Of a stretch of 34,558 bases of DNA, positions 3,128 through 34,220 are shown piece after piece; position 1 is the stretch's first letter; each line of letters begins with the position of its first letter. A model generated the notes under the pieces. That model saw only the letters and a list, made by a program, of their open reading frames with translations, searched no databases and was not told the origin of the DNA. The position numbers and the translations under genes were made by a program. Where the stretch lies: positions 1 through 34,558 of the forward strand of contig JAGOUN010000011.1 of assembly GCA_018061255.1 (NCBI GenBank), given 5' to 3'. This DNA is from Gammaproteobacteria bacterium (lineage in GTDB: Bacteria > Pseudomonadota > Gammaproteobacteria > JAGOUN01).

Positions 3128-3156
3128 CCCGAGCTCGTTCTTACCGGGTGAGTGCA

Positions 3157-4566
3157 ATGTTTCGACACGATCTAAATAGAGATTACCAATCCCTTTTTCG
3201 TTTTTTTTTATTTTGCTTTGACATTGTTTTGGTAGTGTTAGCTGGGGTGTTGGCGCATTACATCCGCTTCCAGAACGCAGCAATTGATTATCGTTATTGG
3301 CAGGTTTTGGGTTTGGCCTTAGTTGTATCTTTGGTAATTTTTCGTTGGTGTGGTTTATACAAACCATTAAGAGAAAAACGTTTACTATCGTATTTATTGC
3401 AAGGCACCTTTGCGATTTTTTTAGTATTTAGTGTGCTTAGTGTATTTGGCGTGCTGAGCAAGAGTAGTGTGCACTACTCACGTTTGTGGGTGGGATACTG
3501 GCTTTTTTTTCTTTGGGCGGGATTTGTTTGTTCGCGCTTATTTGTTTATGCGCTATTATCTTACTTGCGTTATAAGGGAGTGAATGCGAAGCGCATTATA
3601 GTGATTGGCGTCAATGCGCGCGCGCAAGCGCTGGTGAAAACTTTATGCCATACAGCATGGTCGGGTGTTAAACCTGTATTGTTTTTTTCTGAATCAGAAA
3701 TTCATGAAAAATCTTTCTTGAATATTCCAGTTGAAACATTTGAATTATCACGCTTGCGTGAATTTGTGCATAGTCTTTTAGTTGACGAAGTATGGATTGT
3801 TTTGCCTTTGCGTGAAGAAGTGCTTATTAAAAGTATTGCAGAAAATTTAATGCATGAAGTTGTTGCGGTGCGTTACGTCCCTGATTTTATGGGTTTATCT
3901 TTCCGGCGTCATACTATGACAGAGATTTCTGGTTATCCGCTTATTAATTTGTATGCAACACCTATGGAGGGTGGTAGGCGTTGGTTGAAAGCTATTGAGG
4001 ATCGTAGTTTGGCGTTGTTATTTTTATTAATAGCATCACCATTAATATTATTGATTAGTTTGTTAATTAAGATCACTTCACCCGGCCCGGTTTTCTTTAA
4101 GCAACAACGTCATGGTTGGAATGGAAAAAAATTTATGGTTTATAAATTTAGATCCATGGTCGTGCATCAAGAGCAAGTTGGCGTAGTTTCTCAGGCAATC
4201 AAAAATGATAGTCGTATCACAAAAATTGGTCGCATTTTGCGCCGTACAAGTTTTGATGAATTACCGCAACTATTGAATGTGTTGCAAGGCGATATGTCTA
4301 TTGTTGGGCCAAGACCGCATGCTGTTGAGCATAATGAATATTACAAAGATTTAATAGAATCCTATATGCAACGTTTTAAAGTAAAGCCAGGCATTACAGG
4401 ATGGGCGCAAGTTAATGGTTATCGCGGAGAAACGGACACCTTGGAAAAAATGCAGCGTCGTGTAGAGTATGATTTGTTTTATATAGAAAACTGGACGCTG
4501 TTATTTGACATTCGAATTGTATTTTTAACTTTGTGGCACGGATTTTTTCATCGCAATGCGTATTGA
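3157..4566 (+). CDS. Polyprenyl-phosphate sugar-1-phosphate transferase (priming enzyme)
   Basis: A membrane enzyme that transfers a hexose-1-phosphate from a nucleotide sugar to undecaprenyl phosphate, the first step of surface-glycan assembly. The N-terminal third has four or five hydrophobic helices, a Rossmann-like central domain follows (IIVIGVNARAQAL), and a C-terminal bacterial sugar-transferase domain begins near residue 285. Family motifs there are SPGPVFFKQQRHG (about 308), KFRSM, RRTSFDELPQLLNVL (about 363; catalytic Asp-Glu), GPRPHA (about 386) and KPGITGWAQVNGYRG. This is the WcaJ/WbaP-like architecture of about 470 residues. ATG 3157 is preferred because GGTGA lies just upstream; an in-frame GTG at 3148 would add three residues. 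It is the first gene of the long plus-strand cluster. The sugar cannot be determined, but a glucose-type hexose is common for this architecture. Confidence 0.9.
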   Translation: MFRHDLNRDYQSLFRFFLFCFDIVLVVLAGVLAHYIRFQNAAIDYRYWQVLGLALVVSLVIFRWCGLYKPLREKRLLSYLLQGTFAIFLVFSVLSVFGVLSKSSVHYSRLWVGYWLFFLWAGFVCSRLFVYALLSYLRYKGVNAKRIIVIGVNARAQALVKTLCHTAWSGVKPVLFFSESEIHEKSFLNIPVETFELSRLREFVHSLLVDEVWIVLPLREEVLIKSIAENLMHEVVAVRYVPDFMGLSFRRHTMTEISGYPLINLYATPMEGGRRWLKAIEDRSLALLFLLIASPLILLISLLIKITSPGPVFFKQQRHGWNGKKFMVYKFRSMVVHQEQVGVVSQAIKNDSRITKIGRILRRTSFDELPQLLNVLQGDMSIVGPRPHAVEHNEYYKDLIESYMQRFKVKPGITGWAQVNGYRGETDTLEKMQRRVEYDLFYIENWTLLFDIRIVFLTLWHGFFHRNAY

Positions 4567-4584
4567 TTTTTAAGAGGGAAAAGT

Positions 4585-6219
4585 ATGCAAGATTTTTTTT
4601 TAACACCAAGACAGCGTTGTGATATTGAATGTTTATTGAACGGAGCTTTTGCGCCTTTGAATAGTTTTTGTGATCAAAAAACTTATGAAAGCATTCTTGC
4701 GCATCGTCGTCTACCAAGCGGCGAAGTGTGGCCGATGCCAATTACCTTGGATGTTTCTCGGGCTCAGGCAGGGTCTCTTGCTCTTGGTGAAGTGATTGGT
4801 TTATACGATCAAGAAGGAATGCATTTAGCGAATATGACAATCACGTCTATTTGGGAGCCGGATAAAATGGCGGAAGCCAAAGCAGTTTTTGGCACAACTG
4901 ATGAGACGCATCCTGGTGTTGATTATCTGATGAATATTGCAGGTGATATTTATTTGAGCGGTGATTTGGAGAAAGTAACCTCACCTAGCCATTATGATTT
5001 TACACATTTGCGATTATCACCAGTGGAACTTAAGCAGCATTTCAAAGCAAATGGCTGGAAGAAAGTGGTTGCCTTTCAGACAAGAAACCCAATGCATCGC
5101 GCGCATCAAGAATTAACATTGCGCGCAGCCAAAGAACATGACGCGCATTTATTAATTCACCCTGCCGTTGGCATGACTAAACCTGGGGATGTAGATCATT
5201 ATACTCGTGTGCATTGTTATCAAAGTATTTTAACTTCTTATCCTGAAAAGACGGCGACTTTAAGTTTATTGCCTATCGCCATGCGCATGGCGGGTCCAAT
5301 AGAGGCGCTGTGGCACGCGTTAATTCGTAAAAATTATGGTTGTACGCATTTTATTGTGGGGCGCGATCATGCCGGGCCTGGCAAAGATAAAGATGGCCAA
5401 GATTTTTATGGGCCTTATGATGCGCAAGAGATGGTTCGCCAATATCAAGATGAAATTGGCATTCAAATGGTGCCTTTCTATGAACTGGTTTATGTGCAAG
5501 AACGAGATGCTTATCTTCAAGAAGATGAAGTTGAGCCTGGTGAAACTGTGTTAAAAATTTCCGGAACAGAATTTCGTCGCATGCTGAAAACAGGTGAAGA
5601 AGTTCCCGCATGGTTTTCTTATCCGGGAGTTATCCATGAATTGCGAAAAACTTTTCCTGCAAAAGAAAAGCAAGGCTTGACTATATTTTTCACGGGTTTA
5701 TCAGGCGCAGGTAAATCCACTATTGCAAATGCTTTGTTAATCAAACTGATGGAATTAACAGATCGTTCAGTTTCATTATTAGATGGCGATGTAGTCAGGA
5801 AAAATCTATCTAGCGAACTAGGGTTCTCAAAAGAACATAGGGATCTCAATATTCTGCGCATTGGTTATGTTGCGAGTGAAATTACTAAGCATGGAGGCAT
5901 TGCCATTTGTGCGCCAATTGCGCCGTATCGTAATACACGCCGCAAGGTGCGTGAGATAGTTTCTGAAACAGGCGCGTTTATTGAAGTCTATGTTTCTACA
6001 TCGCTAGCAGTATGTGAGAGCCGTGATCGAAAAGGGCTTTATAAAAAAGCACGTCAAGGAATTATCAAAGAATTTACTGGCATTAGTGATCCTTATGAAG
6101 TGCCAGAAAATGCAGAAATTGTGATTAATACATCAGAGCACTCGGTTGAACAAGAAGTGATGATGATTATCGATAAGCTTGTAGCGTTCGGATATTTGAA
6201 ATTACCTAATTTAGTCTAA
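4585..6219 (+). CDS. Bifunctional sulfate adenylyltransferase / adenylylsulfate kinase (PAPS synthase)
   Basis: A fused enzyme that makes APS from sulfate and ATP, then phosphorylates it to PAPS, the universal sulfuryl donor. The ATP sulfurylase half (about 1-345) carries QTRNPMHRAH (165-174) and GRDHAGPG (259-266), both nucleotide-binding motifs. The APS kinase half (about 355-544) has Walker A GLSGAGKST (371-379), then DGDVVRKNLS, GFSKEHRD and the CAPIAPYRNTRRKVR loop. The order sulfurylase-kinase and the 544-residue length fit the Sat-CysC fusion. AGAGGGAAAAG precedes the ATG. The gene sits second in the glycan operon, with cysQ and two sulfotransferases in the same locus. No cysH, cysI or cysJ is nearby, so the PAPS most likely serves sulfation of a glycan rather than sulfate reduction. 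Genes elsewhere in the genome could change that reading. Confidence 0.94.
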   Translation: MQDFFLTPRQRCDIECLLNGAFAPLNSFCDQKTYESILAHRRLPSGEVWPMPITLDVSRAQAGSLALGEVIGLYDQEGMHLANMTITSIWEPDKMAEAKAVFGTTDETHPGVDYLMNIAGDIYLSGDLEKVTSPSHYDFTHLRLSPVELKQHFKANGWKKVVAFQTRNPMHRAHQELTLRAAKEHDAHLLIHPAVGMTKPGDVDHYTRVHCYQSILTSYPEKTATLSLLPIAMRMAGPIEALWHALIRKNYGCTHFIVGRDHAGPGKDKDGQDFYGPYDAQEMVRQYQDEIGIQMVPFYELVYVQERDAYLQEDEVEPGETVLKISGTEFRRMLKTGEEVPAWFSYPGVIHELRKTFPAKEKQGLTIFFTGLSGAGKSTIANALLIKLMELTDRSVSLLDGDVVRKNLSSELGFSKEHRDLNILRIGYVASEITKHGGIAICAPIAPYRNTRRKVREIVSETGAFIEVYVSTSLAVCESRDRKGLYKKARQGIIKEFTGISDPYEVPENAEIVINTSEHSVEQEVMMIIDKLVAFGYLKLPNLV

Positions 6220-6231
6220 GAGGTCATATTT

Positions 6232-6663
6232 ATGCATCAAAGTTATCAGTTAAGAAGTCAAGCCATTATTCATGAGTTACTTGATCGGGAAATTATTGTC
6301 GCAGATCTTGATACGGGGGTTTACTATTCTCTTCGAGAAACAGGCGTTCCTGTGTGGCAAATGCTTTTAGCAGGTCAAACAAAAGAGTCGATTGTTCAGG
6401 CAGTTGTCGCTCGATATCCTGATGTATCGCCAGTAATGATTTGTGAAGATGTTGAAAAACATATTCAAGATTTGCTAAGTATTCAGATTTTAGTCCCTAG
6501 AAAAGAAGCTTCATCTGAAGCTTTACTTAATGAATCATTGGTTTGGGAGCTTGGATATTATTTCCCCGTTTTTGAACAGTTTAATGATATGCAGCAGTTA
6601 TTGATGTTAGACCCTATTCATGAGGTTGATGAGCAGGGTTGGCCTCATCAAGAAAAGATATGA
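6232..6663 (+). CDS. PqqD-like protein (RiPP recognition element fold) with C-terminal tail
   Basis: A 143-residue protein whose first 90 residues match the PqqD fold: ELLDREIIVADLDTGVYYSL followed by TGVPVWQMLLAG, then a helical segment. PqqD-type proteins bind leader peptides and present them to modifying enzymes, and they also occur in glycan clusters beside HprK-related kinases, where their role is unknown. The last 30 residues (about 114-143) form an extension with FNDMQQLLMLDP and IHEVDEQGWP, not part of the basic PqqD fold. The gene begins 12 nt after the PAPS synthase and its stop overlaps the kinase start by ATGA, so translation of the two is probably coupled. No separate short precursor peptide gene is visible next to it. 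The family assignment is fairly sure, the function open. Confidence 0.78.
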   Translation: MHQSYQLRSQAIIHELLDREIIVADLDTGVYYSLRETGVPVWQMLLAGQTKESIVQAVVARYPDVSPVMICEDVEKHIQDLLSIQILVPRKEASSEALLNESLVWELGYYFPVFEQFNDMQQLLMLDPIHEVDEQGWPHQEKI

Positions 6664-7676
6664 ATACAAGGCGGCAATTCGCTTTGTTGGACCAAGCGTG
6701 GCAGCGTGTTGTTGATGCCCATACTTTGTTTCACAGCGATTATCAAATTGGGAATCTGTGCGTTCGCATCAGTAGCCCTCATTGTGATTTTCTTCAGAAT
6801 ATGACTCGTGCATTTGCACATCTAAAAATACCACTATGTGACGCCCCTGATCTGATTATTAGTTTATGGGATACGAGCGCGACACATGTTAAGCTGCCCC
6901 CATTAGATTGGGGTCGACTTTTGTACCATGAATACCGAGGCTACCAAGATGAAGGCATATATTTTCATTTTTTTAAACATATTGAGGCGTTAAGCTGTGT
7001 CGATGCGGCGGCAGGTCAAGCCTATTATATTGTGCGCGATCAAACACAATTACCTTGGTGGGTAGCGGGTTCACCGTTTGTTATTATTTTAAATCAAGTG
7101 TTGCAACAACATGGCCTGCAACTAACGCACACAGCAGCAGTAGGCAATGAGCATCGCGCTGTTTTGTTAACGGGAAAGGGTGGAAGTGGAAAAAGTACTA
7201 CGTCTTTAGCCTGTGCCAAATCAGGGTTATATGTTATAGGTGAGGATTATTGCATTTTACAATCAGCAGAGTCAGCTTGTGTTTATAGTATTTATCAATC
7301 CGCAAAATGGACAACAAAGACGTGCGAGTTATTTCCAGAATATCAGCGCTTTATTGTCAATACGACAAAAGAAGCCGGTGAAAAATCGCTAGTTTATTAT
7401 AATGACTTTATCGCAAAGCAAGTAAAGCTATTGTTGCCGGTCCATGCGGTCATTTCATTGCAAGTTAACCCTACAGGTGAGACGCAACTTTTTTCGCAAT
7501 CCCCTGCTGAAGGAATAAAACATTTAATGCTGAGTACATTAGCGCAGCTGCCAGGCAGTAATAATAAAACGTTAGAATATTTCACGCAGCTTTCAAAAAG
7601 TTTTTCCTTCTATCAATTATTGCTTGGAAAAGAGCGCGAACAGAATGTTGATATTATACGGAGTTTTTTGCAATGA
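6660..7676 (+). CDS. HprK-related kinase / P-loop protein
   Basis: A 338-residue protein with Walker A TGKGGSGKST (171-180) in a context like HPr kinase/phosphorylase C-terminal domains, preceded by LTHTAAVG and followed by GEDYCIL as the probable acidic metal-binding segment. The N-terminal half has no family motif that I recognise. True HprK acts on Ser of HPr; HprK-related kinases in lasso-peptide clusters phosphorylate the peptide, and others in exopolysaccharide clusters have no known target. The ATG at 6660 overlaps the stop of the PqqD gene (ATGA), which is a better start than the upstream in-frame TTG at 6639. The 3' end overlaps the next gene the same way. The close coupling suggests that the PqqD-like protein presents or is the substrate, which is inference. 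Confidence 0.78.
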   Translation: MNTRRQFALLDQAWQRVVDAHTLFHSDYQIGNLCVRISSPHCDFLQNMTRAFAHLKIPLCDAPDLIISLWDTSATHVKLPPLDWGRLLYHEYRGYQDEGIYFHFFKHIEALSCVDAAAGQAYYIVRDQTQLPWWVAGSPFVIILNQVLQQHGLQLTHTAAVGNEHRAVLLTGKGGSGKSTTSLACAKSGLYVIGEDYCILQSAESACVYSIYQSAKWTTKTCELFPEYQRFIVNTTKEAGEKSLVYYNDFIAKQVKLLLPVHAVISLQVNPTGETQLFSQSPAEGIKHLMLSTLAQLPGSNNKTLEYFTQLSKSFSFYQLLLGKEREQNVDIIRSFLQ

Positions 7677-8773
7677 AAATTTTATTGTGGTCGCCCTACA
7701 GTTTTCCTCATATTGGAGGCATGGAAGTGCTCCTGCATACACTTGCATTGCAGTTAAAAGCAATGGGTCACGAAGTGAAGGTGTTATCTAGCAATATGGA
7801 GAGTGATGATTGCAAAGAGTTTGAGATAGACGGCATCCCTATTTTTTTATTTCCATTTATTCGTGCGTTAACGCATTTAAATTTACCTGTTGTTAAAAAT
7901 ATTCTTAATAAAGTGAAGATGTTTATCAACGACTTTTCTCCAGATATAGTCAATATTCATGGCTGGCATGAACTTCCTGCCTTTTATCAAGTTCGTGCAT
8001 TAGCCAATAGTAATATTCCATTGTTGTTGACGATACATGGCACTTTGGAGCAAGATGATTATAAAACGCCCTCGTGTTTACGTTTAATGGCCATGGCGCA
8101 TGCGGTGAGTGCTGTTTCTGAAGCTTTGAGGCGTGATTTTTGCTCCTTGGGGATTAATTCACCGCCAGTACAATTAATTCATAATGCACTTATTATTCCA
8201 AGAGCACCCATTAAACCTGTAGACACTCAGAGTCAGCATATTGTTATGATCGGCCGATTGAGTGTAGAAAAAGGATTTGAAATTGCATTTGCGGCAATAA
8301 AAAATTTATTACCACGCTATCCACAACTTCGATTGACAGTAGTTGGCGACGGGCCACTCATCAACACGTTGACAGCGCTTAAACGGGAATTAGGGATAGA
8401 ACATGCGATTACTATGATGGGCTTTGTCCCGCATGAAGAGGTGTTTGGCTATATTGATGCCGCGGCTTTTGTATTAATGCCTTCATCTTACGAAAGCTTT
8501 GGATTGGTAGCATTAGAAACTGCTATGCGTGGTCGCGCGATTATTGCGAGCAACGTCGTTGGGCTGCCTGAAATTATTGATCATAATACAACAGGTATTT
8601 TAATTGATCCTGTAAATGCAGAAACCTTGCAGCAAGCTATCGATTTTCTTTTGCAAAATCCAGATAAAATTCGTGAAATGGGTTTCGCGGCTAAAGAAAA
8701 ATCGAAATTATTTTGTGTGGAAAATATGGCAGATCAATATGAAAAAATTTACAATGACATCGCCATTGGTTAG
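7673..8773 (+). CDS. GT4-family glycosyltransferase
   Basis: A 366-residue retaining glycosyltransferase of GT-B fold, expected to add a sugar to the lipid-linked glycan on the cytoplasmic side of the membrane. The N-terminus SPYSFPHIGGMEVLLHTLA has the GG acceptor loop typical of GT4. The donor-binding half contains IGRLSVEKGFEIA, VVGDGPL and PSSYESFGLVALE (about 271-283), the EX7E motif. It starts with an ATGA overlap on the kinase gene and runs about 20 nt into the next glycosyltransferase, so the run is one operon. Sugar and linkage are not readable; GDP-mannose is a plausible donor because manC lies in the cluster. Confidence 0.9.
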   Translation: MKILLWSPYSFPHIGGMEVLLHTLALQLKAMGHEVKVLSSNMESDDCKEFEIDGIPIFLFPFIRALTHLNLPVVKNILNKVKMFINDFSPDIVNIHGWHELPAFYQVRALANSNIPLLLTIHGTLEQDDYKTPSCLRLMAMAHAVSAVSEALRRDFCSLGINSPPVQLIHNALIIPRAPIKPVDTQSQHIVMIGRLSVEKGFEIAFAAIKNLLPRYPQLRLTVVGDGPLINTLTALKRELGIEHAITMMGFVPHEEVFGYIDAAAFVLMPSSYESFGLVALETAMRGRAIIASNVVGLPEIIDHNTTGILIDPVNAETLQQAIDFLLQNPDKIREMGFAAKEKSKLFCVENMADQYEKIYNDIAIG

Positions 8774-9434
8774 CACCATTATTCCTGCTCATAATGGAGA
8801 GGAATATATAAAAGAAGCAATTGAAAGCGCTTTGCAGCAAGATTATTTATCTCAAGAAATTTGGGTCATTGATAATGCGTCTAGTGATAATACGGCTGAG
8901 ATTGTTCGTTCATTTTCTCAGGTTAATTATGTGTTTAGCGCTATTGCTAATACAGCAATGGCTCGAAATCTTGGTGCCACTTATGCTCAAGGAAAGTATT
9001 TGGCTTTTCTTGATCAAGATGATTGGTGGCCTAAACAAAAAATTTCATTACAGGTCGAGTTTTTGCAAAAAAATATAAATTACGGGGCGGTAATTGGTAT
9101 GCAGAAAATTTACCTCGAGCCCGGATGCGAGAGGCCGCACTGGGCAAAAGAAGCATGGTTTGAAAAATTACAGTATGCGTATTTACCTAGTGCGCTCATG
9201 GTTAGACGAAATGTTTTTTTGGATTGTCATGCTTTTAATGAAGACTTGCCATTTGCCAGTGACGTAGATTGGTTTTTAAGAATAAAAAATGCTGGAGTTA
9301 TGCTAAAGATTTTGCCCGATTTAATCGTTAATCGTCGTATTCATAGCAAAAACAACTCAAGCCAAATAGCAGCACTTCATAAAGAAATATTATTATCGCT
9401 TAAGGAATCTATTCGTTATGGAAGAAAAAGTTAA
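8754..9434 (+). CDS. GT2-family glycosyltransferase
   Basis: An inverting GT-A glycosyltransferase of about 226 residues. VSTIIPAHNGEEYIKEAI at the N-terminus, IDNASSDNTAEIV, the ARNLGATYAQGKYLAFLDQDD segment (split here by its DXD-like QDD motif) and a VDWFLRIKNAG acceptor region are the usual GT2 landmarks. The start is not certain: ATG 8754 puts the conserved strand four residues in, and ATG 8739 would add five residues (MKKFT). Longer in-frame starts reach back into the previous gene in another frame and give sequence unlike the family. It overlaps the preceding gene by 20 nt and the following GT2 gene by 17 nt. The specificity is unknown. Confidence 0.88.
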   Translation: MTSPLVSTIIPAHNGEEYIKEAIESALQQDYLSQEIWVIDNASSDNTAEIVRSFSQVNYVFSAIANTAMARNLGATYAQGKYLAFLDQDDWWPKQKISLQVEFLQKNINYGAVIGMQKIYLEPGCERPHWAKEAWFEKLQYAYLPSALMVRRNVFLDCHAFNEDLPFASDVDWFLRIKNAGVMLKILPDLIVNRRIHSKNNSSQIAALHKEILLSLKESIRYGRKS

Positions 9435-10110
9435 AAGTATAAGTATCATTATTCCGGTATTTAACGGTGAAGCCTATATCGCAGAAGCGATTCTTACCGC
9501 ATTAAATCAAGATTATGTATACAAAGAAGTTATCGTGATTAATGATGGATCTACTGACAAAACGGCTGAAATATGCCAGTTGTTTGGGGGGAAAATTATA
9601 TATTATGAACAAAAAAACAGGGGGTTGGGTGCTAGCAGAAATCAAGGTGTTTTGTTGGCAAAAGGCCAGTATATCGCATTTTTAGATTGTGATGATTTGT
9701 GGGAGCCTACAAAATTAAGTGGTCAAATGCAAAATCATGCAGACGATGCTTTGCATTTTACAATGATTAAGCAGTTTTATTGCTCTTCATTATCTGATGT
9801 TGAAAAATCAAATATTACAATACATAAAGAAATTTTGCCTGGATATTGTGGTAGTTGTTTGTTATTGAATCGAGATCTTTTTCAAAAAGTGGGTCTGTTC
9901 CATGAAAAAAATGAAGTGGGAGAATTTATAGAGTGGTATAGCCGAGCGATGGCGTTAAACATCCCGGTGCATCTTCTTGAAGAAGTATTAGCTTATAGAC
10001 GTGTGCATGCTAATAATATGGGCAGGCAGCGTGAGCGATATTCGCGACAAGAATATTTGAAGGTGCTCAAAAAGAACTTGGAATTACGTCGACAGAAAGA
10101 GTGTGTATGA
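9418..10110 (+). CDS. GT2-family glycosyltransferase
   Basis: A 230-residue GT-A glycosyltransferase and close cousin of the gene before it. The motifs are SIIIPVFNGEAYIAEAI (N-terminal), VIVINDGSTDKTAEI, RGLGASRNQGV and FLDCDDLW (the metal-binding DXD region, about residues 86-93). The acceptor-side residues include FIEWYSRAMA, and RRVHANNMG sits near the C-terminus. The two adjacent GT2 genes share length and order of motifs and probably arose by duplication, though the protein identity is modest. Start and stop overlap the neighbours by 17 and 4 nt, in keeping with coupled translation. The donor and acceptor are unknown. Confidence 0.88.
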   Translation: MEEKVKSISIIIPVFNGEAYIAEAILTALNQDYVYKEVIVINDGSTDKTAEICQLFGGKIIYYEQKNRGLGASRNQGVLLAKGQYIAFLDCDDLWEPTKLSGQMQNHADDALHFTMIKQFYCSSLSDVEKSNITIHKEILPGYCGSCLLLNRDLFQKVGLFHEKNEVGEFIEWYSRAMALNIPVHLLEEVLAYRRVHANNMGRQRERYSRQEYLKVLKKNLELRRQKECV

Positions 10111-11210
10111 AAAAATTAAATTGCTGGCCGAGAGAAGATCAAGAGCTATTATTAAAAGCAGCATTATCGAAATTCCCTGAAGCGATTATTGCTTGGACCA
10201 ATTACCTTGCAACGCATGACCTTGATCATATAGAGCATGCTTGTATTCACTTGTTGCCTTTAGTGTATATGAATATACAGCAAAATCACGTATGTAAAAG
10301 TGTTTATCGTTATTGGTGGGCTTCAAACCATTTATTTCTTAATAGGTTCAAGCAGCTTCTGCAAACACTCATTGAGCAAAATATTGAGCCTTGCTTGCTA
10401 AAAGGGGGCGCATTAATGTTGTGCTGCTATTCCAGTCCAGGAGCGCGTGTCATCGGCGATATCGATATCTTGATCGATAAATCACAGGTGAAAAAAACCA
10501 TAGAGCGCCTTATGTCTCTAGGGTGGCAGCCATCTTTTGAGATGGAAAATCTTGAAGATTATATGAAAATTAAGCATGGCTGCCATTTTACCAACCAACA
10601 TAATCAATGCGTTGATCTGCACTGGTTACTTTCTTTACGTCACGTTACAAATACATCTTTAGCGCAAGTTTCATATAAAACAGTGCGGCATTTTACTGAA
10701 AAACTTGGAAGAGAAGTTGTTATGCTTTGCCCAGAAGACCAGTTGCTTCATATTTTTATTCATGGCATTGCGGAGAGTGAACAGCCGCTAATTCGCTGGG
10801 TGCCTGACGCAGCCTTCATTCTTCGTCATCACACTTTGTTTGACTGGGATTACTTTTTTCAGCAAACAAAAAATGCTAAAATTTCTTTTATTGTCAAGCC
10901 CGCATTAGAATACTTGCATGAAAAAAATTTTATTATATTGTCAAAAAGAACACTGAAATCTCTTGGGAAACTCAAGGATCCATGGAGTGAAATTTTTTCG
11001 GCTAGTTTTTCTAGAACTAAAATAGTTCATACTATTAGATTTGTTCGTTTAACGTGGAAGGAATATCGACAAAAAACACCGGCTTGTTGTTGGGTGTTAG
11101 CATTACTTCGGCTGCCGAAATATTTATCGCAACGTTGGCGCTGCGAAAATAAGGTGGGTTTTTTCAGGAAGCTGCAGAAAAAATTTTTTAAGCATTTGTT
11201 AGGAAAATAA
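10107..11210 (+). CDS. NTP_transf_5-type nucleotidyltransferase family protein
   Basis: A 367-residue protein of the uncharacterised nucleotidyltransferase family (Pfam NTP_transf_5). The landmarks are LLKGGALML (about 97-105), the metal-binding GDIDILI segment (Asp118, Asp120) and a later VDLHW motif, the usual third acidic position of this fold. The family is known from glycan and lasso-peptide clusters with HprK-related kinases, but its substrate has not been established as far as I know. ATG 10107 overlaps the stop of the GT2 gene by ATGA; GTG 10101 is an alternative start. The C-terminal 100 residues are basic and have no motif that I recognise. It probably works with the PqqD-like and HprK-like proteins upstream, though three glycosyltransferases lie between them. 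Confidence 0.78.
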   Translation: MKKLNCWPREDQELLLKAALSKFPEAIIAWTNYLATHDLDHIEHACIHLLPLVYMNIQQNHVCKSVYRYWWASNHLFLNRFKQLLQTLIEQNIEPCLLKGGALMLCCYSSPGARVIGDIDILIDKSQVKKTIERLMSLGWQPSFEMENLEDYMKIKHGCHFTNQHNQCVDLHWLLSLRHVTNTSLAQVSYKTVRHFTEKLGREVVMLCPEDQLLHIFIHGIAESEQPLIRWVPDAAFILRHHTLFDWDYFFQQTKNAKISFIVKPALEYLHEKNFIILSKRTLKSLGKLKDPWSEIFSASFSRTKIVHTIRFVRLTWKEYRQKTPACCWVLALLRLPKYLSQRWRCENKVGFFRKLQKKFFKHLLGK

Positions 11211-11216
11211 GAGATT

Positions 11217-12011
11217 ATGTTGACGCAAGACCTGCTGAGAAATGTAATAAAAATTACACATCAAGCCGGTGAAAAAATTATGTCTGTATATGGCGAGCAA
11301 GCTACTGACATTAATATCATGCAAAAAGAAGATGGATCGCCTTTAACTAAAGCTGATTTACTTGCTCATCAAACTATTATTGATGGATTAAAATTATTGA
11401 CGCCTGATATTCCGATATTATCTGAAGAATCTAGCGAAGCAGAGTGCTCGCAACGACATCAGTGGCCCACGCTTTGGATGGTGGATCCTTTGGATGGAAC
11501 TAAAGAGTTTATTCATCGCACAGATGAGTTTACAGTCAATATCGCCTTGATTGTTAATTGTCGTCCAGTGTTGGGGGTTGTGTTTGCGCCTGCTTTGGGC
11601 GTGACTTATTTTGCTATGGATGGCCATGGCGCCTACAAAAAATATGCAGATAAAGCGCAACGCATTTCAGCGCGTTTTCCTATTACGCTGCCATATCAAG
11701 TGGTGGCAAGTCGTCGACATGGCGGCGAAGCTTTGGAAAAATTCTTGCAACAACTTCCTGATCATGTATTAGTGAATGCAGGCAGCGCGCTGAAAATTTG
11801 CTTGGTCGCCGAAGGTGTAGCTGATTTTTATCCACGACTTGGCCCTACGAGCGAGTGGGACACCGCTGCGGGCCATGCGATTATCAATAATGCTGGCGGT
11901 ATTTTATGTGATGCACAATATCGTCCCTTTCAATATAATATGCGAAATACCTTGCTCAATGGATCATTTATAGTTAGTCATAAAAATACGCCGCGATTTG
12001 ATTTTTGTTAG
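11217..12011 (+). CDS. cysQ: 3'(2'),5'-bisphosphate nucleotidase
   Basis: A 264-residue Mg-dependent phosphatase that hydrolyses PAP (3'-phosphoadenosine 5'-phosphate), the inhibitory product left by sulfotransferases, to AMP. Inositol-monophosphatase-fold motifs are in place: LSEESSE (68-74), DPLDGTKEF (90-98) and SEWDTAAGHA (212-221), which supply the metal ligands. The length is typical of CysQ. It follows the nucleotidyltransferase by 6 nt. Together with the PAPS synthase and two sulfotransferases in the same locus it completes the sulfation cycle: make PAPS, transfer the sulfate, clear PAP. A role in general sulfur metabolism cannot be ruled out if this is the only copy. Confidence 0.92.
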   Translation: MLTQDLLRNVIKITHQAGEKIMSVYGEQATDINIMQKEDGSPLTKADLLAHQTIIDGLKLLTPDIPILSEESSEAECSQRHQWPTLWMVDPLDGTKEFIHRTDEFTVNIALIVNCRPVLGVVFAPALGVTYFAMDGHGAYKKYADKAQRISARFPITLPYQVVASRRHGGEALEKFLQQLPDHVLVNAGSALKICLVAEGVADFYPRLGPTSEWDTAAGHAIINNAGGILCDAQYRPFQYNMRNTLLNGSFIVSHKNTPRFDFC

Positions 12012-12071
12012 CGGGTTGTGAAGTTTAGTCAATATGAGTAGAATTCATCATATTTAGAAAGCCATGTTATT

Positions 12072-12076
12072 AGGAG
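12072..12076 (+). promoter_or_regulatory. Ribosome-binding site that favours the TTG start of manC
   Basis: AGGAG lies 5 nt before the TTG at 12082. The upstream ATG at 12064 has no comparable site. Confidence 0.55.
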
Positions 12077-12081
12077 CTCCC

Positions 12082-13494
12082 TTGATTATCCCTGTTATAT
12101 TGTCTGGTGGTTCTGGTACGCGCTTGTGGCCAAGTTCGCGTGCTTTGTATCCCAAGCAACTGTTAGCATTGGCTTCAGAATACAGTATGTTGCAAGAAAC
12201 AGTGCTTAGGCTGTCTGGTTTTGAAGGAGTTTCTGCTCCTATCTTTATTTGTAATCAAGAGCACCGTTTTATTATTGCGGAGCAACTGCAACAGATTGGT
12301 ATTTCAGATGCAAAATTAATTTTAGAGCCAGAACCAAAAAATACTGCACCCGCAGCGCTTATAGCCGCACTTTATGCGCAGCAGGAGTATGGCGAAGATG
12401 TTACATTGTTGGTGTTACCTGCGGACCACTTGATTCGTGATGTTGCTAGTTTCCAACAAGCGGTTGATATTGCGGTTGCAATTGCAAAGCAAGGATACTT
12501 GGTGACGTTTGGTGTAAAACCTCTACATCCAGAGACCGGATACGGATATATCCGATATGGTGAGTCGCTAGCGAATCAGGTTTATTCTGTGGATAGCTTT
12601 GTTGAGAAGCCGAATGAAACAAAAGCAAACGAGTATCTTTTAGAAGGAAATTATTTATGGAATAGCGGTATGTTTGTATTTCTCGCCGCTGAATATCAAA
12701 GGGAAATGCAACAATACGCACCAGCAATTACCTCTGCTTGTCAATTAGCTTTGAAGTCCGCTCGAAGTGATTTAGATTTTGTAAGATTAGATGGAGAAGC
12801 TTTTGCGCTATGTCCTTCAGACTCCATTGACTATGCTGTTATGGAAAAAACAAAAAAAGCTGCAGTTGTTTCGTTGAATGCGAAATGGAGCGACTTAGGT
12901 TCCTGGTCGTCTTTATGGGAGGCAATGCCAAAAGATAAAAATGACAATGTATTGGTGGGTGATGTGTTGACGCACAATGTGACAGATTGTTATATACGTG
13001 CGGAACATAAATTAGTTGCCGCTGTTGGAATAAAAAACCATGTCATCATTGAGACAGATGATGCCATTTTGGTTGTTGATAAAAATAACACGCAAGATGT
13101 AAAAGAGATTGTAAAAAATTTACAACTGCAAAAACGCTTTGAACATCATGCGCATAGCATTGTTTATAGGCCTTGGGGAAGTTATCAATCTTTAGACATG
13201 GGAAAAAATTTTCAAGTGAAACGAATTTGCGTTAAGCCTGGCGCTAAACTTTCTTTACAAATGCACTATCATCGTGCAGAGCATTGGATTGTTGTTAAGG
13301 GGACTGCAAAAGTTGTGCGTGGCGAAGACAGTTTTATTTTGACAGAAAATCAATCGACATACATTTCTATTGGGCAGAAACATCGGCTAGAAAATCCCAC
13401 GTTACTGCCTTTAGAGATCATTGAAGTGCAGTCTGGTAATTACCTGGGTGAAGATGATATCGTGAGATTTGAAGATGATTACCAAAGAAAATAG
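12082..13494 (+). CDS. manC: Mannose-1-phosphate guanylyltransferase / mannose-6-phosphate isomerase
   Basis: A type II bifunctional enzyme giving GDP-mannose. The nucleotidyltransferase domain starts IIPVILSGGSGTRLWP and continues YPKQLLAL, EPEPKNTAPAAL, LPADHLI, GYGYIRYG, FVEKPN and WNSGMFVF. The C-terminal cupin isomerase domain (about 350-470) has YRPWGSYQ, VKPGAKLSLQMHYHRAEHW and ENPTLLPLEIIEVQSG, whose His and Glu residues bind the metal. TTG 12082 gives MIIPVILSGG, the usual family N-terminus, and has a good ribosome-binding site; ATG 12064 would add six residues. About 50 nt separate it from cysQ. It supplies GDP-mannose (or a derivative such as fucose or perosamine) for the glycosyltransferases around it; no GDP-mannose dehydratase is in the window, so mannose itself is the simplest guess. 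Confidence 0.93.
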   Translation: MIIPVILSGGSGTRLWPSSRALYPKQLLALASEYSMLQETVLRLSGFEGVSAPIFICNQEHRFIIAEQLQQIGISDAKLILEPEPKNTAPAALIAALYAQQEYGEDVTLLVLPADHLIRDVASFQQAVDIAVAIAKQGYLVTFGVKPLHPETGYGYIRYGESLANQVYSVDSFVEKPNETKANEYLLEGNYLWNSGMFVFLAAEYQREMQQYAPAITSACQLALKSARSDLDFVRLDGEAFALCPSDSIDYAVMEKTKKAAVVSLNAKWSDLGSWSSLWEAMPKDKNDNVLVGDVLTHNVTDCYIRAEHKLVAAVGIKNHVIIETDDAILVVDKNNTQDVKEIVKNLQLQKRFEHHAHSIVYRPWGSYQSLDMGKNFQVKRICVKPGAKLSLQMHYHRAEHWIVVKGTAKVVRGEDSFILTENQSTYISIGQKHRLENPTLLPLEIIEVQSGNYLGEDDIVRFEDDYQRK

Positions 13495-14302: not shown

Positions 14303-14955
14303 TGAGCGAAATCATTGTTTCTCTAAAAAACGTAGGCTTGTGTTATAAAAAGCGTTTTTCACTTAAAAAAAGAAAGTCTAATACTTATTGGGCGCTGCAA
14401 GATATCAATTTAGAAATTTCTCATGGCGAATCTATTGGTATTTGCGGACGAAATGGCGCTGGTAAATCGACATTGCTTAGAGTATTAGCAGGCATAGTTT
14501 CCCCTAGTAGAGGGATGATTACTATTGCTGAAGGGGTTCGTTCAGGATTATTAACGTTGCAATCAGGATTCAATCCTTATTTGAATGGAGTAGATAATGC
14601 TATTCTAAAGGGGTTGTATATGGGCATGAAAAAAGAATATATCCAAAGTAAAATGAACGAAATCATAGAGCTTTCAGGTCTAGGCGTTGCTTTTTATAAT
14701 CCTATAGAGACCTATTCTTCCGGAATGGCGGCTCGTTTAGGTTTTGCGGTTAATTATTTTTGTATGCCGGATCTGTTGCTAATTGACGAAACTCTCAGTG
14801 TTGGTGACAAGCAGTTTAAACAAAAATCAAAGTTGCTTATTCGTGAGCTTATTCAATCCAATAAAACCGTGGTCATTGTGAGTCATGATGAAGAGGTTTT
14901 GGCTTCCTTGACAAGCAAAATTTACACTTTAGAAGAAGGGGTGCTAACTTTTTAG
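14302..14955 (+). CDS. ABC-2 type polysaccharide export ATP-binding protein
   Basis: A 217-residue ATPase subunit that pairs with the permease just before it. Walker A GRNGAGKST is at 49-57, the signature YSSGMAARL near 138-146, Walker B LLLIDE near 158-164, and the H-loop SHD near 194-196. The protein ends soon after the nucleotide-binding fold: the C-terminal carbohydrate-binding domain that Wzt-type proteins use to recognise a chain-terminating cap is absent, so it resembles KpsT-type ATPases. The GTG at 14302 shares one base with the permease stop, and TAAGG lies about 10 nt upstream; the in-frame TTG at 14293 is less likely. The 3' end overlaps the convergent ATPase gene by 12 nt. Substrate recognition must lie elsewhere. 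Confidence 0.9.
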   Translation: MSEIIVSLKNVGLCYKKRFSLKKRKSNTYWALQDINLEISHGESIGICGRNGAGKSTLLRVLAGIVSPSRGMITIAEGVRSGLLTLQSGFNPYLNGVDNAILKGLYMGMKKEYIQSKMNEIIELSGLGVAFYNPIETYSSGMAARLGFAVNYFCMPDLLLIDETLSVGDKQFKQKSKLLIRELIQSNKTVVIVSHDEEVLASLTSKIYTLEEGVLTF

Positions 14956-16095
14956 AGCCTCTATGAGACTTTGCAAACTTTGTACGTGGATTTTTTCCGA
15001 TAAACGGTAACTATGACCCTCGCCTGGGTGAATAATTGTCAGTTGATCAAGTTTTAAATCTTCGAGAGCTATGCGCATGGATTTACTTATTTTGGGCGAT
15101 TGTGTATATTTAAATTCATATCCTATGCGCGATTGTCCTTTCATGATGAGCAAATCCAGTTCAGCATTGGCATGAGTTGCCCAGAAATAGGCGTCATGCT
15201 CATCAATTTTTTGGCATCTTATTACTGTCTCTAATGCAAATCCTTCCCAGGATGCGCCTATTTTGGGCGTCGTTATTAATTGCGCGTTATTTTCAATACC
15301 CAAAAGAGAATGAAAAATGCCTGAGTCGCGAATATAAATTTTTTTCGCTTTGACTTGTCGTTTAGAGATATTTTCGTGCCAAGGGGATAATTGCCGAATC
15401 ATGAAGGTTCCTGACAGAATATCGAGATAATGTTTTACTTTGTGTTGTGAGATATCGAGAGAGTTGCTCAATTCTGAGTAATTAACAAGTTGTCCGTGAT
15501 AATGCGCTAGCATCATCCAGAAGCGCCTCAACTGTTGAGCGGGGATGGAGATGCCTAATGCAGGAATGTCTTGCTCAAGGAAGGTTCGAATATATTGTTC
15601 GCGCCATGCATAACTTTCTTGCTCTGTTTTTGCGAGATAAGATAATGGAAATCCACCTTGCAACCACAAACGATTGACATCATCTGCTTCATTGAGTGAA
15701 AAAGGAGTCATCTCAATATAATGAATGCGGCCAGCAAGTGATTCAGAGCTTTGCTTGATGAGTTCTCTAGAGGCGCTTCCTAAAATTAAGAATTGTCGCT
15801 GTTTGTGTTCTTGGTCAGATAAAAAACGTAGAAGTGGAAATAATTCAGGTGATCTTTGAATTTCATCAATTACGATAAGTCCAGAGAGGTTTTCTAGTGC
15901 AAGCAATGGTTCTGATAATCGAGCTAGGTCGCGAGGGTTTTCAAGGTCAAAGTAATGCTCCGGTGATCCTAGTTGTGCGTTAAAATATTGTCGCGCCAAG
16001 GTGGTTTTTCCGCACTGGCGTGGCCCCAATAGGGCGACGACCTTGCTGGTAGCATAGGCTTGCTGAATTTGAGAAAAGTAGAGCGGCCTTTCCAT
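14944..16095 (-). CDS. AAA_14/DUF4143 ATPase
   Basis: A 383-residue P-loop ATPase of a widespread family of unknown role, often found as a mobile or defence-associated accessory gene. Walker A GPRQCGKTT is at 24-32, Walker B LIVIDEIQ with Asp77-Glu78, and a sensor patch LILGSAS near 98. A winged-helix-like linker (HYHGQLVNYSELSNSL) leads into the C-terminal DUF4143 domain, with the PD-(D/E)XK-like stretch WEGFALETVI and ELDLLIMKG followed by IGYEFKYT. The gene is complete, unlike its decayed relative at 953-1262, and faces the export ATPase gene with which it overlaps by 12 nt. Its ribosome-binding site lies within a 16-bp inverted repeat. It is probably an accessory gene placed in the glycan locus; a function in glycan synthesis is not suggested by its domains. 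Confidence 0.88.
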   Translation of the reverse strand: MERPLYFSQIQQAYATSKVVALLGPRQCGKTTLARQYFNAQLGSPEHYFDLENPRDLARLSEPLLALENLSGLIVIDEIQRSPELFPLLRFLSDQEHKQRQFLILGSASRELIKQSSESLAGRIHYIEMTPFSLNEADDVNRLWLQGGFPLSYLAKTEQESYAWREQYIRTFLEQDIPALGISIPAQQLRRFWMMLAHYHGQLVNYSELSNSLDISQHKVKHYLDILSGTFMIRQLSPWHENISKRQVKAKKIYIRDSGIFHSLLGIENNAQLITTPKIGASWEGFALETVIRCQKIDEHDAYFWATHANAELDLLIMKGQSRIGYEFKYTQSPKISKSMRIALEDLKLDQLTIIHPGEGHSYRLSEKIHVQSLQSLIEALKS

Positions 16096-16268: not shown

Positions 16269-17357
16269 TTATGCCTGTCTGGAAAAGCGAAACTTATGAA
16301 GCTTTCTTTTTAGACTTAAGCGTATTCTTTTTAAAAGCGGTGTTTCCCTTTCAATATCTAATTGGCCTTGTAAGCTTATTCGAATTTTTTCTAGTTGGTA
16401 ATGGCTTGCTAATAATTCATTTGAAAATATTTTTCTTTTTTCAGGATAAAGTGTGTGGAATTTTGCATTTAATATCTGCTGTGGCGACATGTTATTGATA
16501 CCCAAATGATCAAGTACACTGTCACACTCTTTTTCTACATTTTCTAACCATGCCACTTCTTCGATGCTATATTTCTTTGCCTCAGGAGTGATTTTTATCT
16601 TCTCATAACCTGATATTTCACTTTTATTTAAGCAAGTAGTTGACGCTATTTTTTCAATAAAATTATCAAAATTTTCTACTATATCTTTTTCAAATTCTAT
16701 TATCGTATCAGCGTGGTGACGTGCAAACAGCTCGCTCAATTTTGAGACAAAATAATGCAGGTGATAAGAAGAAGTGCTGGCATCAATAATAAAAGGGAAG
16801 TGTTCATCAAGAGAGATGACTAGTTGCACAAGCCCATAGGCGTTAAATTGAAACATGTCTCGTTCATATTCTTTTGGAAGATGTGTTCGAGAAGATTTCC
16901 AAGAGTCACGAGTATTTCTTTTTATATTAATAATTTTTGCATCAGGAAAGTTTTTTGCTATCCATGGCAATCTAAAGTCAATCCTGTTGAGTTTTATAGC
17001 AATCTGTCTGTCATCTTTTTTCTGAGTTAAATAATGAAGATAGTTTTTTAATGGCTCATAAGAGTCGCTCTCTTGAAGAGTCAATCTTTCGAAAGCAAAT
17101 GTTGAGGAATAAAAGCGAGTCAAGTCAGTAAGCGAGTGATATTCTTCCCAATAATTACTAACACCGTTATGTTGTTTTTTTGGATTAATATATTGAATGC
17201 TTTCTAATAACCCTTCGTGAAGTGCTTCATAATATGCGCAATAATGCTTTGACCAATTAAAGAAATTCCACAAAAAAGTGGTTCCAGAACAAAATCGACC
17301 GGTTATAAAGATAGGATGCACTCCATACTCCTGCGCTCTTTGTAAATCAAATGACAT
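16269..17357 (-). CDS. PAPS-dependent sulfotransferase
   Basis: A 362-residue soluble-looking protein with the sulfotransferase 5'-phosphosulfate loop TGRFCSGTTFL (19-29) and a 3'-phosphate-binding segment IINIKRNTRDSWKSSR (142-157), the second feature of PAPS binding. The family is Sulfotransfer_1/3-like rather than the carbohydrate type 2 of its neighbour. The C-terminus is strongly basic (RIRLSLKRKLHKFRFSR). It follows the other sulfotransferase on the minus strand with a 55-nt overlap, so both are probably translated from one mRNA. In the glycan locus, and with the PAPS synthase and CysQ, it most likely sulfates a sugar of the glycan. The acceptor cannot be read from the sequence; a lipid or other small acceptor is possible. 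Confidence 0.82.
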   Translation of the reverse strand: MSFDLQRAQEYGVHPIFITGRFCSGTTFLWNFFNWSKHYCAYYEALHEGLLESIQYINPKKQHNGVSNYWEEYHSLTDLTRFYSSTFAFERLTLQESDSYEPLKNYLHYLTQKKDDRQIAIKLNRIDFRLPWIAKNFPDAKIINIKRNTRDSWKSSRTHLPKEYERDMFQFNAYGLVQLVISLDEHFPFIIDASTSSYHLHYFVSKLSELFARHHADTIIEFEKDIVENFDNFIEKIASTTCLNKSEISGYEKIKITPEAKKYSIEEVAWLENVEKECDSVLDHLGINNMSPQQILNAKFHTLYPEKRKIFSNELLASHYQLEKIRISLQGQLDIERETPLLKRIRLSLKRKLHKFRFSRQA

Positions 17358-18238
17358 AGTTGTTGTTTAGCTTTTATAAGCTTCACTTGGTAGTTGTTTA
17401 AAATATAAGAATAAAGTTGAATATCAAGTTGACAGTTTTTTTCCAAAAATGCCAAGGTTTCTTTGCCAGGAGTGGCTTTTTCGTTTTCTGCGCTTGGATT
17501 CACAATGCGGTTTTCTACTCTGGGTCGTTGTAGTACATCGGCCAACATGTTGGCGAGTTCATGAGTTTTATTATAAGGGACGACAGCAAGATAATTATGA
17601 TCAAAACTCTTTTTGGCTTTTTCAAGCAGATTGGGTGAGTCGTGGCAGCGTGTTAGCTGTGAACAGATGCCATTTTTTATTTTAGGGCTATTTTTTGAAA
17701 TTAATATATCAATAAACTGATCAAAATTGTTATTTTTAATGCCTTCATTATATGCATTATGGCCGGGTCTGGTTCTTAAATAGCGAAAAAAAGATTCCAG
17801 CCTATCGACAGGATGGCGCACGGAGGCGATATAAAGTGGTTTTTTGCGAAAATAGGGAAAAATTTCTAGGGGAATTATGCTATTTGACCATTTTCTTTTG
17901 GGAAAAACTTTTGCCAAGGGGGTGCCATACCAAAGATGTCCAGACAGTAGTCTGGTGTCATACAAGTGTTTGCTAAGCTCTGGATAGCGAGTATTTTTAT
18001 TTGTTTTAACTGGTTTACAAGATCTCGCATCAAACACATGCTGATCACCAAGTAATGTGCGTAAGTGTCGCACTAATGTGCTTCCCCCGCATTTTTCTAC
18101 ATGCGTATGTATAAAAACATGTCGATTAAAAAATTTTTCCTGTGGTGAGGGCACGTGTAGTTTCCTGTTATCTATTGGTTTGGGTAAAATGCTTGCATAC
18201 ATTGTTAAACCGCGCATTCTACTTAAATAAGTTCGCAT
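17303..18238 (-). CDS. Carbohydrate-type sulfotransferase (Sulfotransfer_2-like)
   Basis: A 311-residue protein with a 5'-phosphosulfate loop HTHVEKCGGSTLVRHLR (44-60) and a 3'-phosphate-binding segment SVRHPVDRLESFFRYLR (139-155). Both closely resemble heparan-sulfate 2-O type and related carbohydrate sulfotransferases of the Sulfotransfer_2 family. No signal peptide or membrane anchor is evident, so the reaction would be cytoplasmic. Start 18238 is the longest; ATG codons at residues 8 and 13 are alternatives and no ribosome-binding site settles it. The region between this gene and the divergent glycosyltransferase at 18317 is only 78 nt. It acts with the second sulfotransferase 55 nt into its 3' end. 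Confidence 0.82.
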   Translation of the reverse strand: MRTYLSRMRGLTMYASILPKPIDNRKLHVPSPQEKFFNRHVFIHTHVEKCGGSTLVRHLRTLLGDQHVFDARSCKPVKTNKNTRYPELSKHLYDTRLLSGHLWYGTPLAKVFPKRKWSNSIIPLEIFPYFRKKPLYIASVRHPVDRLESFFRYLRTRPGHNAYNEGIKNNNFDQFIDILISKNSPKIKNGICSQLTRCHDSPNLLEKAKKSFDHNYLAVVPYNKTHELANMLADVLQRPRVENRIVNPSAENEKATPGKETLAFLEKNCQLDIQLYSYILNNYQVKLIKAKQQLCHLIYKERRSMECILSL

Positions 18239-33938: not shown

Positions 33939-34220
33939 ATGAAAAAGACACTTGTTGCACTTTTTTTAGCTGCTGGTTTAGGTTTAGCTGCTGGCAACGC
34001 AATGGCTCAAGAAATTGTAGCTCCTGCAGACCAAGCTGCTGCTGCTGCTGATCCTTCTACTGCTGCTGCTGCTGATCCTTCTACTGCTACTGCTACTGCT
34101 ACTGCTACTGCTACTGCTGATATTAATGTTGAAGAACCTACTACTACTACTGATGAGTCTACTACTGATGACTCTACTACTGATGACTCTACTACTGATG
34201 AGTCTACTACTGGAGTATAA
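33939..34220 (+). CDS. Exported low-complexity Ala/Thr/Asp/Ser repeat protein
   Basis: A 93-residue protein with a signal peptide (MKKTLVALFLAAGLGLAAG, cleavage after NAMA). The mature part is almost wholly low-complexity: Ala-rich, then six Thr-Ala pairs, then an acidic Thr-Thr-Asp-x-Ser section. Nearly every Ala is GCT and every Thr is ACT, so the protein repeats are DNA repeats too and probably expand or contract by slippage. AAGGGA lies 7 nt before the ATG. It ends with an intrinsic terminator downstream, so it is a single-gene unit. Disordered, possibly O-glycosylated or surface-exposed, is an inference. No family is recognised. Confidence 0.7.
   Translation: MKKTLVALFLAAGLGLAAGNAMAQEIVAPADQAAAAADPSTAAAADPSTATATATATATADINVEEPTTTTDESTTDDSTTDDSTTDESTTGV
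34083..34118 (+). repeat. Six tandem ACTGCT units
   Basis: Six perfect 6-bp units, which encode the Thr-Ala pairs of the exported repeat protein. The imperfect GCT-rich run at 34035-34075 lies just before it. Confidence 0.9.
34146..34205 (+). repeat. Four tandem 15-bp units ACTACTGATGAxTCT
   Basis: Four units that differ only at one base (G or C), encoding Thr-Thr-Asp-Glu/Asp-Ser. Unit changes keep the reading frame. Confidence 0.9.

Follow-up and report, generated by a model that had tools for sequence, protein, structure and literature searches.

A six-gene PqqD/kinase/glycosyltransferase/NTP_transf_5 cassette as a candidate for an undescribed system of peptide-guided phospho-sugar modification

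Positions 6232 to 11210 of the window (the whole stretch of 34,558 nucleotides that was analysed) hold a tight run of six genes, encoding in order a PqqD-like protein, a kinase, a GT4 glycosyltransferase, two GT2 glycosyltransferases and an NTP_transf_5 protein. The cassette appears to encode an undescribed system in which a peptide guides phospho-sugar modification, distinct from lasso-peptide biosynthesis; no description of the gene set was found in the literature searched, which took in few subscription journals. The best explanation, to which we give an even chance, is that of a mobile, self-contained cassette for RRE-guided phosphoryl and glycosyl transfer. At the level of sequence, its PqqD protein combines an RRE domain, its own [FY]xxP recognition-like sequence and a conserved arm, and travels with the kinase, GT2 and NTP_transf_5 genes.

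Genes of the cassette and their spread

All six genes lie on the + strand, with overlaps of 4 to 20 bases at their junctions. The first (6232..6663; PF05402, E=8.5e-12) encodes the PqqD-like protein, with an RRE fold and a C-terminal extension. The kinase gene (6660..7676) most likely starts at the ATG at 6660, which overlaps the PqqD stop codon (ATGA), and stops at 7676. It is followed by the genes for the GT4 enzyme (7673..8773; PF00534/PF13439), GT2 enzyme a (8754..9434; PF00535), for which a start at 8754 is more likely than one at 8616, GT2 enzyme b (9418..10110; PF00535) and the NTP_transf_5 protein, of the minimal nucleotidyltransferase family (10101..11210; PF14907, E=1.6e-31). The earlier note had singled out the triad of PqqD-like protein, HprK-like kinase and NTP_transf_5, which proved real by the PF05402 match, the HprK/PEPCK-fold model and the PF14907 match; the unit, beyond that triad, is all six genes.

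By sequence, the kinase gave weak HprK-related matches that did not reach the cut-off (24.1 bits to TIGR04352, cut-off 200), whereas its AlphaFold2 model (pLDDT 92) matched the structures of PEPCK (E~1e-11) and HPr kinase (E~1e-7). The fold, the Walker A motif and the catalytic His and Asp of the HPr kinase/PEPCK group are all present, and Walker A, H164 and D203 are invariant across the kinase family. Residues 202-203 are Glu-Asp in the window kinase, Glu thus replacing the first Asp of the pair, and Asp-Asp in most relatives; lasso kinases need a His-Lys-Asp-Asp set (PMC9266682). The kinase is intact, and the loss of nucleotide-binding residues that the earlier note had named as a ground for refutation was not seen. 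In the kinase tree, which contains long branches, the window sequence paired with that of an unrelated MAG contig (L061) with full support, while the split from lasso-linked kinases was weakly supported.

For its part, the NTP_transf_5 protein scored 110 bits against the curated PF14907 cut-off of 31.2, with the DxD motif intact (DIDIL) and the third Asp also present. Copies without the catalytic DxD were found in four other loci (L015, L018, L064 and L077), and a second NTP_transf_5 match lies near the DxD-less copy in L015, L064 and L077. Neither PADLOC nor PHROGs gave a match for the PqqD, kinase or NTP_transf_5 proteins.

A search for the kinase in 369 gammaproteobacterial genomes returned matches in 10, strong in four only. 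More kinase loci came from a Crinalium plasmid, further Pseudomonadota and a wider genome contig collection, which contributed 24 loci with record titles naming Cyanobacteria, Armatimonadota, Chlamydiae, Bacillota, Planctomycetota, Verrucomicrobia, Bacteroidetes, Actinomycetota, Acidobacteria and others. A seven-sequence kinase alignment tried as the query for scanning the collection was dropped as too divergent. The kinase family occurs with PqqD and GT2, and usually NTP_transf_5, in about ten phyla, although single phylum assignments may be wrong because many loci are MAG contigs. PqqD was found near 26 of 30 strong family kinases (one PqqD-less locus ends at a contig edge), and most loci also contained GT2 homologues (one to three) and NTP_transf_5. 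Three kinase loci (L071, L074 and L075) had no PqqD gene within the sequence stretch examined. The absence of co-occurrence elsewhere, which would have spoken against the triad, was thus not observed. In four loci from cyanobacterial genomes (L112-L115; 1.7-2.1 Mb), the kinases measure ~500 aa, with an added PqqD-like stretch in three of the four; these loci show a longer arm ending in GWTPEK, plus GT2 enzymes, two of which, in L113, are fused to GT8 or MptE-like domains.

Genomic surroundings of the cassette

In the window, the cassette lies within a wcaJ-sat/cysC-cysQ-manC-ABC operon. The host locus (3148-6219, 11217-13494 and 16269-18238) encodes a WcaJ-type transferase, a fused sulfate adenylyltransferase/APS kinase, CysQ, ManC and two sulfotransferases, and probably directs the synthesis of a sulfated surface glycan. 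A cassette-sized stretch (6159..11242) is missing from two sister species. In the first (G002), the sequence homologous to the window breaks off at 6158 and picks up again at 11243, the surrounding operon being ~95% identical and sat/cysC abutting cysQ; similarly, cysQ directly follows sat/cysC in the second (G001). The kinase is absent from both. In G002, two small ORFs with a RelE/CopG-type toxin-antitoxin look, judged by eye, lie between cysQ and manC (L125:10238-10809, - strand), an interval that spans no more than ~50 bases in the window. Elsewhere in the window, an ATPase gene (14944-16095, - strand), which we take to be of the DUF4143 kind, matched the PADLOC candidate-defence models PDC-S01 (E=1.9e-81), and a small protein that ends in a Ser/Thr/Asp repeat and is probably secreted is encoded at 33939-34220 (+ strand).

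The MAG contig L061 carries all six genes in identical order, at 31-49% identity each (42% for the GT4 enzyme at the equal position, 47% for GT2 a and 49% for GT2 b). Its flanks are unrelated to those in the window, with genes for a YhcG nuclease and a DUF1186 protein on one side and for an epimerase/DUF2867 protein and a DUF7309 protein on the other. A Chlamydiae MAG (L066) carries PqqD, the kinase, three GT2 genes and NTP_transf_5, with UvrB, Thy1 and MscS genes nearby. No clear GC shift was seen at the window cassette, and no direct repeat was obvious by eye at its ends. The cassette is self-contained and most likely horizontally mobile. A specific tie of the triad to sulfotransferase and ABC export loci was not supported, given the unrelated surroundings elsewhere and the absence of the cassette from the operon of the sister species.

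The C-terminal extension of the PqqD protein and its possible role

The AlphaFold2 model of the PqqD protein shows the beta3-alpha3 winged-helix fold of PqqD and B1 proteins, and the structure that it matched best was 5v1v, a lasso B1 protein in complex with its leader (TM 0.89, normalised by target length). Beyond the RRE domain and a linker, the protein contains an RRE-recognition-like segment at residues 108-124 (6553..6603, + strand), with Y109-x-x-P112 and then F117-x-D119-M120, followed by the arm MLDPIHEVDEQGWP at residues 125-138 (6604..6645, + strand). Among 15 homologues, the arm showed the highest mean pairwise identity (67%), followed by the recognition-like segment (40%), the RRE domain (31%) and the linker (10%). 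The arm has the pattern DP[IV]H[DE]V..GWP, in which D, P and H are invariant, and no Ser, Thr or Tyr is conserved in it. Of 26 PqqD proteins from loci that had been found via the kinase, without use of the tail, 24 ended in [FY]xxPxLxx[FY]xD[ML]xxLLxLDP[IV]H[DE]V..GWP or a sequence much like it.

Searches with the tail itself were in agreement with this distribution. Among 399 genomes of Pseudomonadota the tail profile matched in 6, and among 194 of cyanobacteria in 8, every time in a PqqD-sized ORF, and in the nine newly examined loci found in this way the kinase and GT2 were always nearby (9/9) and NTP_transf_5 nearly always (8/9). No stand-alone arm was detected in the about 590 genomes scanned. 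The tail had no match in phages, Crinalium as its sole match among plasmids, and no match to solved structures; a text search of the literature for the motif also gave none. The DNA pattern for DPIH[DE]V returned 14 matches in 369 gammaproteobacterial genomes, compared with 4 for the reversed control, and lay in a PqqD gene only in the window and in G036.

Sequences of the W/Y/LxxP type dock onto RREs as a strand that runs alongside beta3 (PMC12710340, PMC5067487). In the AlphaFold2 model, residues 113-117, just past Y109xxP112, form an extra strand (pLDDT ~90), which, as read from the predicted secondary structure, is most likely docked on the protein's own RRE; residues 125-143 have a pLDDT of ~60, the arm being predicted as free or flexible. 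The earlier note had stated that there is no precursor gene. This holds for separate ORFs, since no small precursor ORF recurred near the cassettes, but the PqqD protein itself bears a precursor-like C-terminal extension, a candidate for the missing precursor. Its idea of tailoring an unnamed target had likewise overlooked the arm, which is the best candidate for that target or for a docking element.

According to the explanation that we favour, the recognition-like segment would occupy the RRE groove of its own protein as an extra strand, and the arm would thus be held out freely. In this way, an RRE that has its recognition sequence in the same chain would present its own arm to the kinase, the GT2 enzymes and the nucleotidyltransferase. 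By analogy with PsmK and PsmN (see below), the kinase, nucleotidyltransferase and glycosyltransferases may act in sequence on the arm, which would then most likely be a precursor joined to the very domain that recognises it, and the product would be a phospho-glycosylated peptide-protein. The weakest link in this scheme is the role of the arm itself as acceptor, to which we give a little less than an even chance. The known acceptors of lasso kinases are of the Ser/Thr/Tyr kind, and RiPP cores are usually variable while their leaders are conserved. The arm, in contrast, is the most conserved part of the PqqD protein, which fits a docking tag too, and, as it has no conserved hydroxyl residue, either Asp, His or Trp would be modified or the arm would serve for docking. 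Besides the lack of Ser/Thr/Tyr, the points against the favoured explanation are the loss of DxD in some NTP_transf_5 proteins, the Glu-Asp pair of the window kinase and the PqqD-less loci.

A docking tag, through which the PqqD scaffold would gather the kinase and/or the nucleotidyltransferase while these enzymes modify another acceptor (a glycan, a lipid or a small molecule), is a serious but rather less probable alternative. The arm resembles a short binding motif: LLxLDPIH and GWP are hydrophobic, and hydroxyl residues are lacking. In addition, the arm-less family members (L017/L076 and L019) have either no NTP_transf_5 alongside or only a divergent one; these two independent cases, few as they are, suggest a joint action of the arm and the nucleotidyltransferase, which speaks for the favoured explanation as well. 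The position of the window cassette within a sulfated-glycan locus would suit a glycan acceptor, but the cassettes of L061 and L066 lie beside unrelated genes, with no polysaccharide locus, and the sister species keep the glycan locus without the cassette, so that a specific glycan acceptor is not evident. Less likely still is a new kind of system in which a recognition domain bears its own substrate: the PqqD protein would act as a carrier, with its arm (DPIHEVDExGWP) modified at Asp/His by phosphorylation or nucleotidylation, or at Trp by glycosylation, and holding a sugar chain built by the glycosyltransferases of the cassette.

Relation to known systems and significance

In pseudomycoidin biosynthesis, the kinase PsmK phosphorylates the lasso peptide and PsmN, an NTP_transf_5 protein, adds a hexose to the phosphate (PMC8498205, PMC9266682). 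Systems of this type (PsmK, PsmN, split B1) have in common with the cassette a B1-kind RRE, an HPr-kinase-like kinase, the His-Lys-(Asp/Glu)-Asp pattern, an annotated nucleotidyltransferase and guidance by a peptide. However, the cassette has no protease and no separate precursor, GT2 enzymes belong to its set, and its RRE protein carries a conserved arm with no C-terminal Ser. Most of its kinases branch apart in the tree, but the support for this is weak.

The lasso B2 leader protease (PF13471) was not found anywhere in the window genome. It was also absent from 20 of 28 kinase-bearing genomes or records, and elsewhere it lay away from the cassette. No asparagine-synthase-like cyclase is encoded among the window cassette genes; in L018, such a cyclase adjoins a separate HprK/PqqD set about 1.7 kb from the cassette. 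A separate precursor gene with a C-terminal Ser was not encountered either, there being no recurrent small ORF and no conserved Ser in the arm. Thus, the conserved triad without lasso genes that had been proposed is borne out by its recurrence across phyla and the lack of PF13471 in the window genome; the cassette is not a lasso cluster, although its mode of action may resemble that of lasso tailoring genes. That it consists of degenerate or orphaned lasso tailoring genes is very improbable: the B1, kinase and NTP_transf_5 families are common to pseudomycoidin-type clusters, and the best matches of the PqqD model are lasso B1 structures, but in the genomes and records checked PF13471 was never beside the cassette, and the GT2 enzymes and the arm, conserved across phyla, are both missing from the lasso-linked loci L026, L090 and L091. 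Scarcely credible is a chance grouping of accessory genes of the host sulfated-polysaccharide operon, in which the genes do sit, as more than 30 loci from many phyla show the combination in other surroundings and sat/cysC adjoins cysQ without the cassette in the two sister species.

Among other known systems, the HprK-related kinases A and B (TIGR04352 and TIGR04355) are similar in the P-loop region and of the HprK kind, but the cassette kinase scored only 24 and 23 bits against these models, far from the cut-off of 200. In PQQ and mycofactocin biosynthesis, as is proposed here, an RRE delivers a peptide of constant sequence, and a GT2 enzyme acts in mycofactocin biosynthesis too. The cassette differs from both in having no regular radical SAM enzyme and in the fusion of the precursor-like segment to the RRE.

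Enlarged PqqD-family proteins without a second annotated domain are reported to form an open group that makes up 21% of PF05402 proteins (PMC12710340). The cassette may explain some of them, as a recognition sequence and a strongly conserved arm in one chain, and provides the poorly understood NTP_transf_5 family with a recurrent set of partners outside lasso peptides. The arm motif is short and open to mutation, which could tell carriers from scaffolds.
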